Shown here piece by piece: positions 13,334 to 23,056 of a stretch of 23,056 nt of DNA. The translations under genes and the position numbers were made by a program. The stretch covers positions 1 through 23,056 of the IMG/VR virus record IMGVR_UViG_3300046519_000303. The stretch is one strand, 5' to 3'. The notes beneath the pieces are model-generated. The model saw only the letters and a list, made by a program, of their open reading frames with translations. It had not been told where the DNA came from and ran no database searches. Origin of the DNA: a virus. Numbering within the stretch: the first letter of the stretch is position 1; every line of letters begins with the position of its first letter.

Positions 13334-13432
13334 CGTGCTGTCTTAAAATGCCCTTGCGTCTTATTACAAAAACGTTAAATAGTGTGCATCTATCGTGCTC
13401 CGGATTTGTAGAGGAGGCGAAGTAAGTACCTT

Positions 13433-13460
13433 TTGACATTAACAATGCCCAAATGACAAT
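13433..13460 (+). promoter_or_regulatory. Sigma70-type promoter for the 313-aa gene
   Basis: A perfect TTGACA (13433-13438), a 16-nt spacer and GACAAT (13455-13460) face the downstream gene. Its presence in an AT-rich gap shows that the cargo gene can be expressed independently of phage late transcription. Confidence 0.6.
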
Positions 13461-13462
13461 CG

Positions 13463-13479
13463 AAAATTTTTCAAATTTT
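13463..13479. promoter_or_regulatory. Inverted repeat at promoter +1 region, possible operator
   Basis: AAAATTT (13463-13469) and AAATTTT (13473-13479) form a 7-bp inverted repeat with a 3-nt centre. It lies directly after the -10 and before AGGAG (13480-13484). It could be an operator or a small hairpin near the ribosome-binding site; AT-richness makes chance possible. Confidence 0.35.
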
Positions 13480-13489
13480 AGGAGCTGGA

Positions 13490-14431
13490 GTGAAAAAAGT
13501 AGTCATCAGTCAGGATGAGCTTGAGCAGGCTAATGGTCAATTTCAGGAGTATATGCAATATGTCGAACGGCGGCTTTCTTCGAAGTATTTTGAGCCTGCA
13601 ATGGTATTGTTCAATATTGTGGATATTATCAAGGAAGATGGTTATGACATTGAGCTTGGTTCAGTGCGTGATGATGCTGCCATCAATGTTGAAAAATGGG
13701 TTAATGAGTTCTACGCTGAGCGCGGCCACATATCGTTCTGCTTTCCTGGTGTTGCGCATAAAGTTAATGGTGCGGTTTATCTCCTGAGAATGCCGGTCAA
13801 TCGCGTAAGTGAGATTATGCTCACTCAGGCTGTGATGGATCTTACGCAGTTGGCCGCTGATATGATAAGTCCCAAACAGCTTGAGCGGTTAGAAAGTGAT
13901 TATAATGATTTTTATAATTGCTATTATGATATGTCAAAATTTCATCCGACTGTGGTGACTCATTTGGAGAGCTCCGCTCAAAAAATTTACAGTGGGTCAG
14001 CTCATTTTGCGCTTTCAAGGTGGGAGTCTTTACATTTCGTAGAGAAGGCGATGAAAGAAGTGCTCTCCCCATTAGGGGTGAAATTTACTGGTTCGAACGG
14101 ACATGATATTCGTGGTGCTTTATATGATGAGTGGTTAGGAGCTGGCTTGTCACCACTACCGGTTCAGTTGTTGGAGGATGTGATGTGCAGCGCGAAAATT
14201 AGGTATGAAAAAACTCTACAGCCTTTTGACTCAACTTTAAGAGCTTACCATTCGGCTATACGACTCGGAGGGTTGATTGCAAAGCAGCTCCCATCAATTC
14301 CCGAAATGCATGAAGAATTATCTATGAAAGTGGGTGAGTTTTCACTGGACGCTGTTATGGCATTTTCACGACTTATTTTGGCTGTTGATCCGCAAGCAGG
14401 AAATTGGCCAAAAGTTAAATTACTAAAGTAG
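13490..14431 (+). CDS. Uncharacterised cargo protein with HEPN-like C-terminal half
   Basis: 313 aa; I do not recognise a named family. The N-terminal about 160 residues are helical and acidic with no clear motif. From about 170 to 265 the pattern resembles a HEPN helical domain: ALSRWESLHFVEKAMKEVL, then NGHDIRGAL, and later CSAKIRYEK. R177 to H182 forms an RX4H, though not at the canonical place. No signal peptide or membrane segment is seen. Translation starts at GTG 13490 behind AGGAG. Codon use is AT-rich, unlike the phage genes before it, which points to recent acquisition. It stands alone behind its own promoter, convergent with the PtuAB-like pair. A defence or phage-exclusion role is inferred from context only. 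Confidence 0.75.
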   Translation: MKKVVISQDELEQANGQFQEYMQYVERRLSSKYFEPAMVLFNIVDIIKEDGYDIELGSVRDDAAINVEKWVNEFYAERGHISFCFPGVAHKVNGAVYLLRMPVNRVSEIMLTQAVMDLTQLAADMISPKQLERLESDYNDFYNCYYDMSKFHPTVVTHLESSAQKIYSGSAHFALSRWESLHFVEKAMKEVLSPLGVKFTGSNGHDIRGALYDEWLGAGLSPLPVQLLEDVMCSAKIRYEKTLQPFDSTLRAYHSAIRLGGLIAKQLPSIPEMHEELSMKVGEFSLDAVMAFSRLILAVDPQAGNWPKVKLLK

Positions 14432-14553: not shown

Positions 14554-14703
14554 AGCCCGACTTCCAAACGGATCGACGACCTCCAGTCTGGCCCGCCGGC
14601 GAGCTTGGTCACCAGGCACTCGCGCACCGCGTGCTGCTCGATTAACACGCAACTCCTCTTCCTGAATGCCTACGCCAACCATCCCCCCACCCAGCCTGGC
14701 GTC

Positions 14704-15336
14704 TCAGTGAGTTGCCACTTTTACCGCTAGCGGTATCACTTTTTTAATTTCATTACATGTTGCATCTGCACCGAGACTGTCAATAGACTCTAACAGCGAC
14801 TGCGTTAAAGTATCTCCAAAGCTCTCCCATTCGGCGTATGCAAAATCAAACCTGATCAGATCGCACATCATATAGGTGCTCTTTCCTTTGTGAGCATTTT
14901 TTACACGATATGTCTGTTGTTCTCCACAACGCACAATCTCGATGTGATCACTATACGTGTCGTAGTGGGGATGAATTATTGAAAACGCTTTGCCGGAGTC
15001 TGGGTAACTCATTTTAACTTTGCTCGTGAAAGGGTCCTTTTCACCTTTGGCAATATTACACTCTTTGCAAGAAAGTGCGAGGTTGTTTAGATCGAATAAG
15101 AATTGAGGATAAACAGATTTAGGAGCTATGTGTTCTATATCCCAAGTCATGCCATGTCTTTCTGTTTTTCGCTGCTGGCAATAACAGCAGCGAAATTTCA
15201 GGAGAGGCAAAAAATGCTCGCGTAAAACTTTGCGTAGACGAGAAATATCTCTTCCGTCAGAGTTCCATATATTATAATTGATGAGATCATAGCTATCTAT
15301 AAAATCTTGAGTCTGAGCATCATAAACTAGAGTCAT
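14704..15336 (-). CDS. ptuB: HNH endonuclease, PtuB-like (Septu-type defence)
   Basis: 210 aa. The HNH core is a zinc-ribbon type: C50-x2-C53, then DIEHIAPKS with H69, then NNLALSC with N85, then C90-x2-C93-N-x2-K. This pattern, with YPQFLFDLNNL between the two cysteine pairs, matches the TIGR02646-like HNH family that includes PtuB of Septu and of retron Ec78 systems. The start ATG overlaps the ATPase stop as ATGA (15333-15336), implying coupled translation. It is AT-rich relative to the tail genes. It is expected to be the nucleic-acid-cutting effector, controlled by the ATPase. No reverse transcriptase is present nearby, so this is Septu-like rather than retron-associated. Confidence 0.8.
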   Translation of the reverse strand: MTLVYDAQTQDFIDSYDLINYNIWNSDGRDISRLRKVLREHFLPLLKFRCCYCQQRKTERHGMTWDIEHIAPKSVYPQFLFDLNNLALSCKECNIAKGEKDPFTSKVKMSYPDSGKAFSIIHPHYDTYSDHIEIVRCGEQQTYRVKNAHKGKSTYMMCDLIRFDFAYAEWESFGDTLTQSLLESIDSLGADATCNEIKKVIPLAVKVATH

Positions 15337-16664
15337 TTTTCGCTTAGCACCTGAATTTGCTCAATCAAATGCAACACTGGATCATTGTCTTTCAGTCGGG
15401 ACTTTATTCTTTCTAAATGCTTGGTTGCCTGTTTCTCCAAGCTATCTAGTTTTTGGTTCTTTGCCAGTTTTGCGAGAACTTTAAGGGCGGTCCTAAGTAA
15501 AAATTCATTACGAAAGCCAGGCTCTTCGAATACTCGTGATAACTGAAAGTCTGCAGATTTTTCTGAATAAGAATCAGGGTAAAACACCTGGTGATTTTCA
15601 AGGTTTATTACGCACGCCGCTTCTGCCTGTAAACCTGAGACCACTTGTGGTGAGTGTGTAGCAATAAAAAAGTGACACCCCTCATAGGACTTGAATATTT
15701 CTTGTAGTAAATTGATAACTTTGGTTTGCCATTCGGGATGCAAACTAATTTCTGGCTCATCTATACAAATTAGCGCATGATGACGCATAGAGGCCGCTAG
15801 GCCTATTAGCATTTGAATCATGCATTGCTGGCCCGAGCTTGCGTCACTAAATTTATGTTTATTTTTACTGCGCAGTGAATATAGTTCGGTATCCAGAACG
15901 CGTAAAAATCCGTTCTCAACTAATTCTATTATTAGCGGTAATATATGTCTAATCGCAGGGGCTGCTCCTGACAAGATATCCAAGTTAAGAGTCAATGGTG
16001 AACCTGGTTTGGCTTTAAAAGTCTTGTAGATTTTATCGACTTCTTTTAACCACATATCAAATTTAAAGTCAGGAGCTATTTTGTTTAGGCGTCTTTTTTC
16101 TCGCTCACGCCTTAGTTCAAATCCTTCAGCTATAGTCAAATTGAATGACGAGCGATAGCCCAGCATTTCAAAGGCGTTGGCTAGTTCAATTGAATGCCTG
16201 TCATCGTCAGCAAGATTCTTAATGACTTGCAAAAAGCTGCTTGACAATGTCGTAACGCCCGCGTGATCGTTTTTGCTTCCAGAAGCTCCTATATAATGGT
16301 ACTCGATACCCGATTCACTTATTTTACTAGTCGGTCTTGGAAATCTATCTCTCGCTCCGGTCGATACTGCGATTACGCAACTCGGACGGGTTTCGGAATA
16401 GAATGCGGGCAGAACATCACTAGACTCTAAAAGGTCATAGTGATCAGAAAATATGTAATTGCTCACGATCTTTCTTAGTAAACGACTCTTACCGCTTGCA
16501 TTACGGCCCGTAATGATAGTGAACGCAGTTTCGTCTCCATGATAACTATCATCACTCAACTGTATTTGTTTTTGGTCATGAATAATCGATGCAATTCGAA
16601 AATACAAAGTGCCTCCTGCAATTATTTTATCCAAACTTGCAGAATATACCACTGAGGATGTCAT
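15333..16664 (-). CDS. ptuA: ABC/SMC-type ATPase, PtuA-like (Septu-type defence)
   Basis: 443 aa. Walker A is GRNASGKS (residues 53-60), the ABC signature SSGQQ (276-280), Walker B LICIDEPE (298-305) with the following SLHPEWQ, and the switch-histidine ATHSPQ (H337). The long insert between Walker A and signature is charged and helical, as in OLD/SMC-like ATPases. Without a TOPRIM domain and directly upstream of an HNH gene in the same operon, this is the PtuA arrangement: a sensor/regulator ATPase that complexes with PtuB. The start lacks a strong Shine-Dalgarno (GTGATAGCC precedes it), so low expression is possible. Divergence from characterised PtuA proteins cannot be judged here. Confidence 0.8.
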   Translation of the reverse strand: MTSSVVYSASLDKIIAGGTLYFRIASIIHDQKQIQLSDDSYHGDETAFTIITGRNASGKSRLLRKIVSNYIFSDHYDLLESSDVLPAFYSETRPSCVIAVSTGARDRFPRPTSKISESGIEYHYIGASGSKNDHAGVTTLSSSFLQVIKNLADDDRHSIELANAFEMLGYRSSFNLTIAEGFELRREREKRRLNKIAPDFKFDMWLKEVDKIYKTFKAKPGSPLTLNLDILSGAAPAIRHILPLIIELVENGFLRVLDTELYSLRSKNKHKFSDASSGQQCMIQMLIGLAASMRHHALICIDEPEISLHPEWQTKVINLLQEIFKSYEGCHFFIATHSPQVVSGLQAEAACVINLENHQVFYPDSYSEKSADFQLSRVFEEPGFRNEFLLRTALKVLAKLAKNQKLDSLEKQATKHLERIKSRLKDNDPVLHLIEQIQVLSEK

Positions 16665-20101: not shown

Positions 20102-21022
20102 TCAGACAGGTCGAAACTCGACCGTCAGATGGCTGACTTCGTGAACCGGCTTGAGACGTTCACGAATGCTATCGGCGTTCGCAGTGGCCTCACCAAGGAC
20201 GCTGACGATGGCCGCATGGGCTTGCGGACCAACCCGCCAGACGTGCAAGTCCGTGATAGTGGCATCCCCCGGTTTCTCAACCAGTTCGCGGATTTCCTCG
20301 GCAACGTGTACATCTGTCTGATCCAGCAGTACTCCTGCGGTGGCCCCCATCAAGGTCCATGCCCAGCGCGCAATAACAATGGCGCCGACAATGCCCATGA
20401 CCGGGTCCAGCCACACCCAGCCGAGATACCGGCCGGCGAGCAATGCAGCAATGGCCAGAACGGAGGTCAGTGCGTCTGCAATGACGTGGACGTAGGCCGA
20501 TTTCAGGTTGTTGTCGTTCCCGTGATGGGCGTGGCCATGATCGTGATCGTGATCGTGCCCATGACTGTGCCCGTGGCCCAGCAGCAGGGCACTGACAATG
20601 TTGACGATCAAACCGGCAATCGCGATGAGCGTAGCGGTGCCGAACTGAACTTCCGTTGGCTGCAAGAGGCGCATGACAGATTCAACGCCAATTCCCAGGG
20701 AGACCATACCGAGAATCAGCGCCGAGGCGAATCCGCCCAAGTCTCCAACCTTACCGGTACCGAAACTGTAGCGCTGGCTGGAAGCGTGGCGTTTTGCGTA
20801 TCCATAAGCGGCCGCCGCGATGCCCAATGCGCCGGCATGAGTGGCCATGTGAAAGCCATCGGCCAGTAACGCCATCGAGCCCGTGATATAGCCAGCGGTG
20901 ATCTCGCCAACCATCATCACAACGGTCAGCGCCACAACCCAAAGCGTACGCTTGGCATTTTCGTCGTGTGCTGAGCCAAGGAACACATGATCGTGTGTGT
21001 AGTTGATGTTCGTGCTGTTCAT
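20102..21022 (-). CDS. dmeF: Cation diffusion facilitator, DmeF-type Co/Ni exporter
   Basis: 306 aa inner-membrane efflux protein with about six hydrophobic segments. The TM2 metal site reads LLADGFHMATH (D55, H58, H62), the DmeF form. TM5 has H179-x3-D183 (HVIAD). A His-rich cytoplasmic loop (about 150-167, GHGHSHGHDHDHDHGHAHHG) lies between TM4 and TM5. The cytoplasmic C-terminal domain includes ITDLHVWRVGP. ATG 21022 is chosen because AGGAA precedes it; a GTG at 21046 overlapping the dmeR stop gives 314 aa. DmeF exports Co(II), and in some bacteria Ni(II), using the proton gradient. The adjacent regulator gene confirms the pathway. Confidence 0.93.
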   Translation of the reverse strand: MNSTNINYTHDHVFLGSAHDENAKRTLWVVALTVVMMVGEITAGYITGSMALLADGFHMATHAGALGIAAAAYGYAKRHASSQRYSFGTGKVGDLGGFASALILGMVSLGIGVESVMRLLQPTEVQFGTATLIAIAGLIVNIVSALLLGHGHSHGHDHDHDHGHAHHGNDNNLKSAYVHVIADALTSVLAIAALLAGRYLGWVWLDPVMGIVGAIVIARWAWTLMGATAGVLLDQTDVHVAEEIRELVEKPGDATITDLHVWRVGPQAHAAIVSVLGEATANADSIRERLKPVHEVSHLTVEFRPV

Positions 21023-21042
21023 GAGCGTGTTCCTGGATACGT

Positions 21043-21318
21043 TCACTTGGAGTAACGGCGAATGGCTTCAAGAAGCTCCTCGACGCCTTTGTTACGCTCT
21101 TCTTCGCTGAGAGCAGGGTTCGCGACATGCTCCCGCGCGTGTTCCTCGATGATTTCCTCCATCAAGCCATTGATTGCTCCGCGAGTAGCGGCAACAAGGT
21201 GCAGTGTTTTGGCGCAATCGAGGTCCGACTCCAATGCCCGCTCAACGGCTTGGATTTGTCCGGCGATGCGTTTTACGCGTTTGAGAAGATCGTCTTTGTT
21301 CGCTGCAATGTGACCCAT
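21043..21318 (-). CDS. dmeR: DmeR, RcnR/FrmR-family Ni/Co-responsive repressor
   Basis: 91 aa, all-helical DUF156 (CsoR/RcnR/FrmR) fold. All four ligands known from E. coli RcnR are present at the same numbers: H3 (MGH), C35, H60 and H64 (EEHAREH). That favours Ni/Co sensing over Cu or formaldehyde. It should bind G-tract operators and repress its own operon with dmeF until metal releases it. It is the first gene of a minus-strand operon with dmeF, ending 20 nt before the dmeF ATG. Two C-tract sites lie upstream. Confidence 0.92.
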   Translation of the reverse strand: MGHIAANKDDLLKRVKRIAGQIQAVERALESDLDCAKTLHLVAATRGAINGLMEEIIEEHAREHVANPALSEEERNKGVEELLEAIRRYSK

Positions 21319-21377: not shown

Positions 21378-21516
21378 GATTCGGCGGACGGAGGAATATC
21401 TGCGCGCCCTTGCGGGAAAGACAGACTTCAATTTCGAGCGGAGAGCGAGAGGATTTGGAGGGTCCGCTTCTGGCCGTTTTCTGTCTGTCCCTAAGGGCAG
21501 AAAATGGCCGATAGCA

Positions 21517-21726
21517 TCACTCCGGCGTCATCATCACAGCAAGCGTCATCTTAATGAATTCCTCATTCCGGTCGATCGCTTCCAGGGCGCCGCGCACGTT
21601 GTCAGCAACGTTGGCAGCACCTCGCAACTCTACCCAATTGGTAAGCTCCAGAATGGCCGCTTCGAGGGCGAGTTGGTTTTCGTTGATCTTGAAGAGTAAG
21701 GAAGGGAGCAGGTCAGAATGTGGCAT
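21517..21726 (-). CDS. Small conserved-looking hypothetical protein
   Basis: 69 aa, acidic and helical (LLFKINENQLALEAAILELT, then AIDRNEEFIKMTLAVMM). No signal peptide or known motif. The ATG at 21726 is preceded by GAGGA, which supports it as a real gene. The function is unknown. Confidence 0.6.
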   Translation of the reverse strand: MPHSDLLPSLLFKINENQLALEAAILELTNWVELRGAANVADNVRGALEAIDRNEEFIKMTLAVMMTPE

Positions 21727-21957
21727 CGCGAGTCCTCGATTTTGAGGTCAGCTTAGCAGGGAGTTTTAGGTCGGTGGAAAAGCTGATGGGTGAATTTCAA
21801 TCATGCAAAATTGGGTCAAACCGTACGCCAACTCATGCCATTTAAAGGCAGATGAACAAATAACACTTGATGTCAAAAAAGCCCTGTGGTCCTTTATTTA
21901 CATATAGTAGGGCTTTTTTGCTTTGTTGCTCCAACAATATCAGCGTGTGTTGGCCGT
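21727..21957. other. Intergenic region with a terminator-like hairpin
   Basis: No gene is seen. It contains the stem described at 21875-21919 and otherwise AT-rich sequence without recognisable promoters. Confidence 0.5.
21875..21919. terminator. Bidirectional terminator-like hairpin
   Basis: AAAAAAGCCCT (21875-21885) pairs perfectly with AGGGCTTTTTT (21909-21919) across a 23-nt loop. A-tract and T-tract ends allow termination on either strand; it would end the 254-aa gene's transcript on the minus strand. Confidence 0.7.
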
Positions 21958-22722
21958 TCAATTTTCCTTGGCTAGTAAGGCTGCGTTTTCCCGTAGGTCG
22001 CGCTCTTTCCACTCAGTGAGGCCAAGGTAGTACATTGCCAAAGCCATGCTCTCGGGTGTGTAGCGAGCGGGGAACGGTTGGAAATTTGAAACAAGGCATA
22101 GAACATCAACCGCTCCTATTATTTTGTAAAAATTGAGAGGCGCGCCGTAGTCAGTGTCAGTATACGAGCCATGCGTGATGCCATTTCGATTCGTTTTGTC
22201 GCCAAGGGAGTACTTCTCTGAGCCCGAGTAGAGGTATCGCTTGAGGTAGTGATCGAATGCGTCCAACATCGATTCAACTTCCTCATAATCCCCAAGCTTA
22301 AGTCTATTTGTCTCGTTTTTGGAGTAGGCTAGAAGTGCCGTTAGCATTGGCTTGAGCTCCAGTTTTCGGGCTTTACCGAGTCCAAATCGCTCGTGCAGCT
22401 GTCTGGCAGTCCCTTCGATGACGGGTACTAGTCCTGCGACTGCAACATGATTCAGTCCCAGGAAATGTGCTTCGATTGATTCCGAAATAATGGCTTTGTA
22501 CTGCTGGACAACTGGGGTTTCCGGATAGCGGGACACCACCATGGCGGCCAAATGTCCGGCCGTATAAATCTCTTTTAGTGCAGATTCAATGTGAGCCTGG
22601 CTGAGGTCTTTCGAAGTATGGGTATTTTTTATGATTTTTGAGAGTGTCCCGAAATTCACGAATGGCGGGATGAAAAAACCAATTTTTGCGAACTCAGTTT
22701 CGAATCCTTTGAGGCTGCCCAT
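21958..22722 (-). CDS. Hypothetical protein with HEPN-type RNxxxH motif, next to att site
   Basis: 254 aa, no signal peptide or membrane segment. An N-terminal helical region leads to a conserved-looking core, SIEAHFLGLNHVAVAGLVPV, and then NRNGITHG at 178-185, giving R179-x4-H184. The RX4-6H motif followed by Gly is typical of catalytic HEPN ribonucleases and abortive-infection proteins, but it is short and I do not recognise the whole family. ATG 22722 has AAAGGA 8 nt upstream. It is the last gene before the tRNA-Ser junction. Base composition is lower in GC than the tail genes. A toxin, defence or exclusion role is inference only. Confidence 0.7.
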   Translation of the reverse strand: MGSLKGFETEFAKIGFFIPPFVNFGTLSKIIKNTHTSKDLSQAHIESALKEIYTAGHLAAMVVSRYPETPVVQQYKAIISESIEAHFLGLNHVAVAGLVPVIEGTARQLHERFGLGKARKLELKPMLTALLAYSKNETNRLKLGDYEEVESMLDAFDHYLKRYLYSGSEKYSLGDKTNRNGITHGSYTDTDYGAPLNFYKIIGAVDVLCLVSNFQPFPARYTPESMALAMYYLGLTEWKERDLRENAALLAKEN

Positions 22723-22817
22723 GCGGTAATCCTTTGTAAGCGGGATGAATAGAAGTGTTCCAATCCATCATCGTATTAGTTTTTCGCCAAAGAGGTGCAC
22801 CCTCACCATCAGCCTGC

Positions 22818-22847
22818 TTAGGGCAAAATTAGGGCAAATTCAGGGCC
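22818..22847 (+). repeat. 11-bp-phased direct repeats near att
   Basis: TTAGGGCAAA occurs at 22818-22827 and 22829-22838, followed by a degenerate TTCAGGGC (22839-22846). The 11-bp period puts copies on one face of the helix, as in tyrosine-integrase arm-type sites. They lie about 90 bp from the tRNA fragment, on the element side. Confidence 0.5.
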
Positions 22848-22928
22848 GCTATAGTCCGTATTAGGCCACTGGAAAGGTGCTGAAGCGGCGTATTTACAGG
22901 GCAGTAGCGGCCTATGTGCACGCTAGAA

Positions 22929-22955
22929 GGGGTTCGAATCCCTATCTCTCCGCCA
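22929..22955 (+). other. attR: 3' fragment of a tRNA-Ser gene
   Basis: The sequence has GGGGTTCGAATCCC (T-arm), TATCTCTCC (3' acceptor strand) and GCCA. No matching GGAGAGA 5' acceptor strand or anticodon arm is found upstream, so this is only the 3' end. A terminator follows at once. This is what remains on the far side when an element integrates into the 3' end of a tRNA gene. The full tRNA should lie at the left end of the element. Confidence 0.8.
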
Positions 22956-22963
22956 TTACATGG

Positions 22964-22999
22964 AAAAAGCCCCGCAGCTGAAAAGCTGCGGGGCTTTTT
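22964..22999 (+). terminator. tRNA-Ser terminator (host side)
   Basis: AAAAAGCCCCGCAGCT (22964-22979) and AGCTGCGGGGCTTTTT (22984-22999) form a perfect 16-bp stem with a GAAA tetraloop and a terminal T-run. It is a strong intrinsic terminator at the normal position after a tRNA gene, now separated from its promoter by the element. Confidence 0.9.
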
Positions 23000-23056
23000 C
23001 GTTTTTGGTGTCTGCGGGTTACGCAGGGCGAGTCAATGGCCCCTGTTGGCCCGTCC

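Follow-up and report, generated by a model that had tools for sequence, protein, structure and literature searches.

Proteins of the HEPN class were surveyed in 2013, where Rx4-6H is defined as their usual RNase motif and a second motif, Ex3[KR], is noted (PMC3710099). The survey also includes members without Rx4-6H, for which RNA-binding roles were proposed. Members of the AF0298 (2hsb) type lack the histidine of Rx4-6H and have kept a conserved histidine further upstream; this residue and the basic one could make up an alternative site (PMC3710099). Here, we describe ORF313, a gene from the cargo region of a Pseudomonas prophage, and compare its product with these proteins.

The prophage and its post-dam cargo

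The DNA analysed here (the window) comprises 23,056 bases of an IMG/VR record, and its left part contains tail, lysis, and dam genes. The host element is a tailed Pseudomonas prophage with P2-type tail genes; many Pseudomonas genomes, and likewise many viral contigs, carry a close relative of its dam gene. The first gene beyond dam in the cargo region at the right end is ORF313. Because the 3' end of tRNA-Ser(CGA) is found close to the end of the window (Table 1), the right attachment site probably lies inside it, which makes the ~9.6 kb from dam to this site cargo. The segment at 22815–23007, which holds the tRNA-Ser 3' end and a terminator and is a probable attR, is partly common to many dam-anchored loci.

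Table 1. Features of the window around ORF313 and at its right end.
Feature	Positions	Strand	Basis or remark
dam-type DNA adenine methylase; the cargo follows this last conserved phage gene	12530–13333	+	PF02086, E 2.4e-22; PHROG 56, E 2.9e-95
Promoter-like site, TTGACA-16-GACAAT	13433–13460	+	plausible, not proven
Inverted repeat AAAATTT/AAATTTT, 3-nt spacer	13463–13479	+	perfect; near the expected transcription start
AGGAG ribosome-binding site	13480–13484	+	5 nt before GTG
ORF313	13490–14431	+	ORF and homologue alignments; gene of the finding
N-terminal region, residues 1–145, no known family	13490–13924	+	homology to plasmid HEPN proteins not established for this half
C-terminal HEPN domain, residues 146–283 as modelled (predicted)	13925–14338	+	hhalign of this half alone; AlphaFold pLDDT; Foldseek (1o3u, 1wol, 2hsb)
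Ex3K motif, E185-K-A-M-K189	14042–14056	+	E185, K186, and K189 invariant in 5 of 5 aligned members
H205 codon (GHD motif); catalytic His of an alternative site (candidate)	14102–14104	+	invariant in 5 of 5; role predicted by analogy with AF0298/2hsb
R238 codon (RY motif); may supply the basic residue of the site	14201–14203	+	invariant in 5 of 5; role inferred
DNA remnant common to other prophages of the group	14567–14701		74–79% identity; between ORF313 and PtuB
PtuB-type HNH nuclease	14704–15336	-	PADLOC PDLC00335, E 5.9e-70
PtuA-type ATPase	15333–16664	-	PADLOC PDLC00283, E 6.8e-107
tRNA-Ser 3' end, probable right attachment site	22930–22958	+	29 bp identical to the tRNA-Ser(CGA) end in locus L062

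In the 6 kb after dam of 123 relatives, 427 ORFs of at least 200 aa were counted (277 clusters), which is an overcount since it includes spurious frames and some of the loci extend into the chromosome. Ten defence-like post-dam proteins were chosen by eye, a biased set that yields no frequency, and nine of them matched PADLOC at 1e-10, including Dsr1, Dsr2, LmuB, and NsnB. The cargo after dam varies strongly between relatives, and its content suggests that the region is a hotspot of defence genes in this group of prophages. Related loci encode genes of the Dsr1, Dsr2, LmuB, and NsnB types on the downstream side of dam (L036, 11065–14865; L117, 16461–20279; L035, 14119–16881; L145, 7367–9370).

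Other parts of the cargo are also worth recording. A metal-sensitive repressor and a CDF (DmeF-type) efflux protein are encoded as a pair at 20102–21318 on the minus strand, and a pair of the same type is found near a distant HEPN relative on a plasmid of Pseudomonas sp. HR96 (L292, 4794–6007). A segment of ~250 bp with a small minus-strand frame (21505–21759) is found again, with 72–85% identity, amid the cargo genes of many related loci, frequently in two copies each. At the right end, a 254-aa cargo protein (21958–22722, minus strand) includes the sequence RNGITH, in agreement with the classical HEPN pattern Rx4H; no match to this protein was obtained in Pfam, PADLOC, NCBIfam, or PDB, and, judged from its sequence, it may represent a second, canonical HEPN cargo gene.

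ORF313 is a genuine ORF that encodes 313 aa from a GTG start, and this start is backed by two homologues whose collinear alignment reaches residue 1. A preliminary description of the locus had called the gene AT-rich and had placed a consensus-type TTGACA, an inverted repeat near the expected transcription start, and an AGGAG in front of it, all of which was borne out. Its GC content is 42.6% (GC3 0.40); the phage genes have 58–65%, and PtuA/PtuB have 40%. The TTGACA (13433–13438) is followed, after a 16-nt spacer, by GACAAT (13455–13460); the consensus is matched at 10 of 12 positions in all, the -10 hexamer contributing only four of six. An exact TTGACA arises in ~5% of base shuffles and an inverted repeat of this size in 2–4%, and six promoter-like sites were observed where 2.3 were expected from shuffles of the region upstream of ORF313. 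When the leaders of the two homologues (in the genomes G264 and G977) were inspected by eye, no similar promoter or inverted repeat was seen. Given these shuffle rates and the homologue leaders, the promoter is regarded as plausible and unproven, and the idea of a promoter/operator conserved throughout the family was rejected.

Relatives of ORF313 and the predicted HEPN domain

The ORF313 sequence had been assigned to no recognised family, and this holds for searches of Pfam, NCBIfam, PADLOC, PHROGs, and PDB sequences, none of which gave a match. One homologue was found among 399 Pseudomonas genomes (G264, 48% identity) and a second one among 398 genomes of the family (G977, 47% identity), so that three close members are known in total, namely the window and two Pseudomonadaceae genomes. 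When 50,697 phage records and 72,556 plasmid records were searched by tblastn with ORF313 of the window, no homologue was obtained, and nothing was found with the G977 homologue in phages and plasmids or with the G264 homologue in plasmids. Profile searches of further genomes, drawn class-, phylum-, and genus-wide with some genomes recurring between the draws, delivered no new close member. Pattern scans of viral contigs based on one, two, or three members likewise gave no homologue; the motif FVEKAMKE had a single, false match, and the 119 stretches returned by the broader EKAMKE scan included no relative as judged by HMM. Weak matches in two other genomes (G054 and G609) were discarded as chance hits overlapping other genes.

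ORF313 has no direct Pfam match, and its link to HEPN runs through intermediates. A profile of the three close members (A2) was run against the ORFs from all fetched loci, where one protein, L291, stands above the rest (E 5.6e-4), the next match (E 9e-3) being an unrelated dehydrogenase-like protein. L291 had come in independently, through a Pfam HEPN search, in which it only just reached the cut-off when its neighbours were included in the frame; scanned as a protein against PF05168 it reaches 19.0 bits against 22, so it is a marginal HEPN match. For profile–profile comparison, L291 was joined by a relative of its own from a Pseudosulfitobacter plasmid. With hhalign, the three close members and these plasmid HEPN-type proteins were aligned over 234 columns at 95.9% probability (E 5.9e-9), while reversed relatives gave 0.2% and none of 150 unrelated proteins exceeded 2.8%. 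The probability remained at 94.5–95.8% when any one member was dropped. The C-terminal half by itself gave 95.5% and the N-terminal half 1.0%. Homology to the plasmid HEPN proteins is therefore claimed for the C-terminal half only, and N-terminal homology, which the collinear alignment had hinted at, was dropped.

The same relationship was found in searches against known structures. When the domain profile was compared with PDB sequences, the top two matches were the HEPN proteins 1wol (E 0.011) and 1o3u (E 1.1). A more distant protein (L290) degraded the domain alignment and was excluded before folding. The AlphaFold model of residues 146–283 has a pLDDT of 79.1 and a pTM of 0.77, and Foldseek placed 1o3u at rank 1 (probability 1.00), 1wol at rank 2 (0.99), and 2hsb at rank 4 (0.94), with modest E-values of 0.06–1.1. 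A search of a viral structure library with the model gave no match. The full-length AlphaFold model built from three sequences was too poor for use (pLDDT 55.6), and its Foldseek search was uninformative save for the HEPN protein 2hsb, low at rank 34. The profile, PDB-sequence, and fold lines of evidence overlap in the sequences used and are not fully independent, yet they are concordant. Profile homology and predicted fold together make it highly probable that the C-terminal half is a HEPN domain. The preliminary description had proposed HEPN for this half and had recommended a comparison with HEPN folds, naming a structure unlike HEPN as the outcome that would overturn the proposal; the comparison instead returned HEPN structures, with an active-site pattern that is non-classical.

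Predicted activity, neighbourhoods, and competing explanations

No conserved Rx4-6H is present. The RWESLH that starts at residue 177 of ORF313 lies upstream of Ex3K and is not kept in the G264 homologue. As the survey takes in members without Rx4-6H (PMC3710099), its absence does not exclude membership in HEPN. Ten residues are invariant across the five aligned members, including the plasmid HEPN proteins: R177, W178, E185, K186, K189, G204, H205, C233, R238, and Y239. H205 and R238 provide the conserved histidine upstream of a basic residue by which the AF0298 type is recognised, and the Ex3K motif, H205, and R238 together resemble the alternative site proposed for these proteins. Given the fold, RNase action through this alternative site is predicted with about an even chance of being right.

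The HEPN domain may also be non-catalytic, as Rx4-6H is absent. ORF313 would then bind RNA or protein as a regulator, adaptor, or translation blocker, a role proposed for HEPN domains of the MtlR type, and serve lysogeny control or exclusion rather than act as an RNase. This agrees with the RNA-binding roles that the survey proposes for such domains (PMC3710099), whereas the invariance of E185, K186, K189, H205, and R238 across divergent members goes beyond a purely structural need, and we consider the explanation unlikely, though the strongest of the competitors.

In the window, ORF313 was correctly described as convergent with a PtuAB-like pair, which is a true Septu-type PtuB/PtuA on the minus strand, and a gap of 272 bp containing a gene remnant separates ORF313 from PtuB. 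The homologue in G264 lies ~105 bp after the gene of an OLD/GajA/AriA-like AAA protein; further upstream, one RES-domain and one OLD-TOPRIM-like protein are encoded. The neighbours of the G977 homologue include HetE-N, TPR-PIN, a retron-effector-like hydrolase, membrane proteins, two RepB/ParB-like proteins, and a serine recombinase. All three close members thus sit among defence-type genes, which is a small sample; and because only three are known, the evidence from context is thin. The earlier concern that homologues might occur only as housekeeping genes away from mobile elements does not apply. Together with the cargo hotspot, the three neighbourhoods make a defence role for ORF313 reasonably probable. 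As a separate observation, the OLD-TOPRIM-like protein of the G264 island (~440 aa; L164, 74–1402, minus strand) shares 81% identity with the product of a post-dam gene of L075 (10963–12282, minus strand), which suggests that it was exchanged between the chromosomal island and a dam-anchored locus.

A protein with a HEPN fold could also serve another cargo function, e.g., anti-defence, fitness, or superinfection immunity. Non-defence genes such as those for metal efflux are indeed present in the same cargo block; the other two members, however, sit amid conflict-type genes, and ORF313 shares its low GC content with the PtuAB pair, which leaves this explanation rather improbable. HEPN domains of this class frequently occur as toxins of HEPN/MNT-type toxin–antitoxin pairs, but neither an MNT protein nor a small partner adjoins ORF313 or recurs at the homologues, and a gene of nucleotidyltransferase fold in L164 is ~6.8 kb away and not conserved, so that a toxin role is very unlikely. 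Finally, the suggestion of the preliminary description that ORF313 could be a third partner of the nearby Septu system, with which its adjacency and equal AT-richness are consistent, is hardly credible, as the gene is convergent across the remnant-bearing gap, has a promoter-like site of its own, and has homologues beside an OLD/GajA-type ATPase and HetE-N/PIN-TPR genes, with no PtuAB near either of them.

The recommended survey of homologues found no recurring partner, and a stand-alone gene is therefore the simplest reading. We propose that ORF313 is an autonomous HEPN cargo (moron) gene of abortive infection or exclusion. In this proposal, the N-terminal part would sense an infection signal or keep the HEPN part inactive; once a competing phage infects the cell, RNA would be cut or bound by the HEPN part, probably through an alternative active site made up of H205, R238, and the pair E185/K189; translation would then stop, and the incoming phage could not multiply. 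RNA as the substrate, catalysis, the trigger, and the protection of the lysogen are the parts of the mechanism that we infer. Taken as a whole, including the alternative site, the explanation seems to us evenly poised between right and wrong. That ORF313 is the first representative of a new single-gene system of defence in Pseudomonas prophages and defence islands, in which a new N-terminal sensor is joined to a HEPN RNase with an H205/R238/Ex3K site, is a tentative and somewhat doubtful extension. ORF313 is a new, rare HEPN member and not a new kind of system.

Comparison with described HEPN proteins and prophage hotspots

ORF313 represents an uncatalogued HEPN family that escapes Pfam, NCBIfam, and PADLOC and would extend the defence repertoire carried by Pseudomonas prophages, and the post-dam cargo spot of these prophages is a place to seek more such genes. 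With the HEPN-T/PF05168 proteins TM0613 (1o3u), ST0689 (1wol), and AF0298 (2hsb), it shares the predicted C-terminal fold and Ex3K. Unlike these, it is missed by the Pfam model, has an additional N-terminal region of ~145 residues, and lacks an MNT partner. The upstream histidine described for AF0298 (PMC3710099) is matched by H205, and ORF313 offers a compact test case for RNA cutting through an alternative histidine by a HEPN protein without Rx4-6H, as predicted for the AF0298 type (PMC3710099). The plasmid HEPN proteins of Pseudomonas sp. HR96 (WP_320579644.1) and Pseudosulfitobacter (WP_114276002.1) resemble ORF313 in their C-terminal HEPN half and in length, but are only 18–22% identical to it and have different neighbourhoods. 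A functional parallel, drawn from the literature only and not claimed as a relative, is Tha of Staphylococcus prophages, which is likewise reported as a single prophage-borne HEPN-domain protein with a proposed defence role (PMC11087260). The locus as such is comparable to the anti-phage hotspots of P2-like prophages (PMC9122126), in which variable defence cargo also lies beside a conserved prophage gene; the E. coli hotspot adjoins the cos site, whereas the cargo spot described here belongs to Pseudomonas prophages, lies downstream of dam, and holds a larger cargo of ~9.6 kb.
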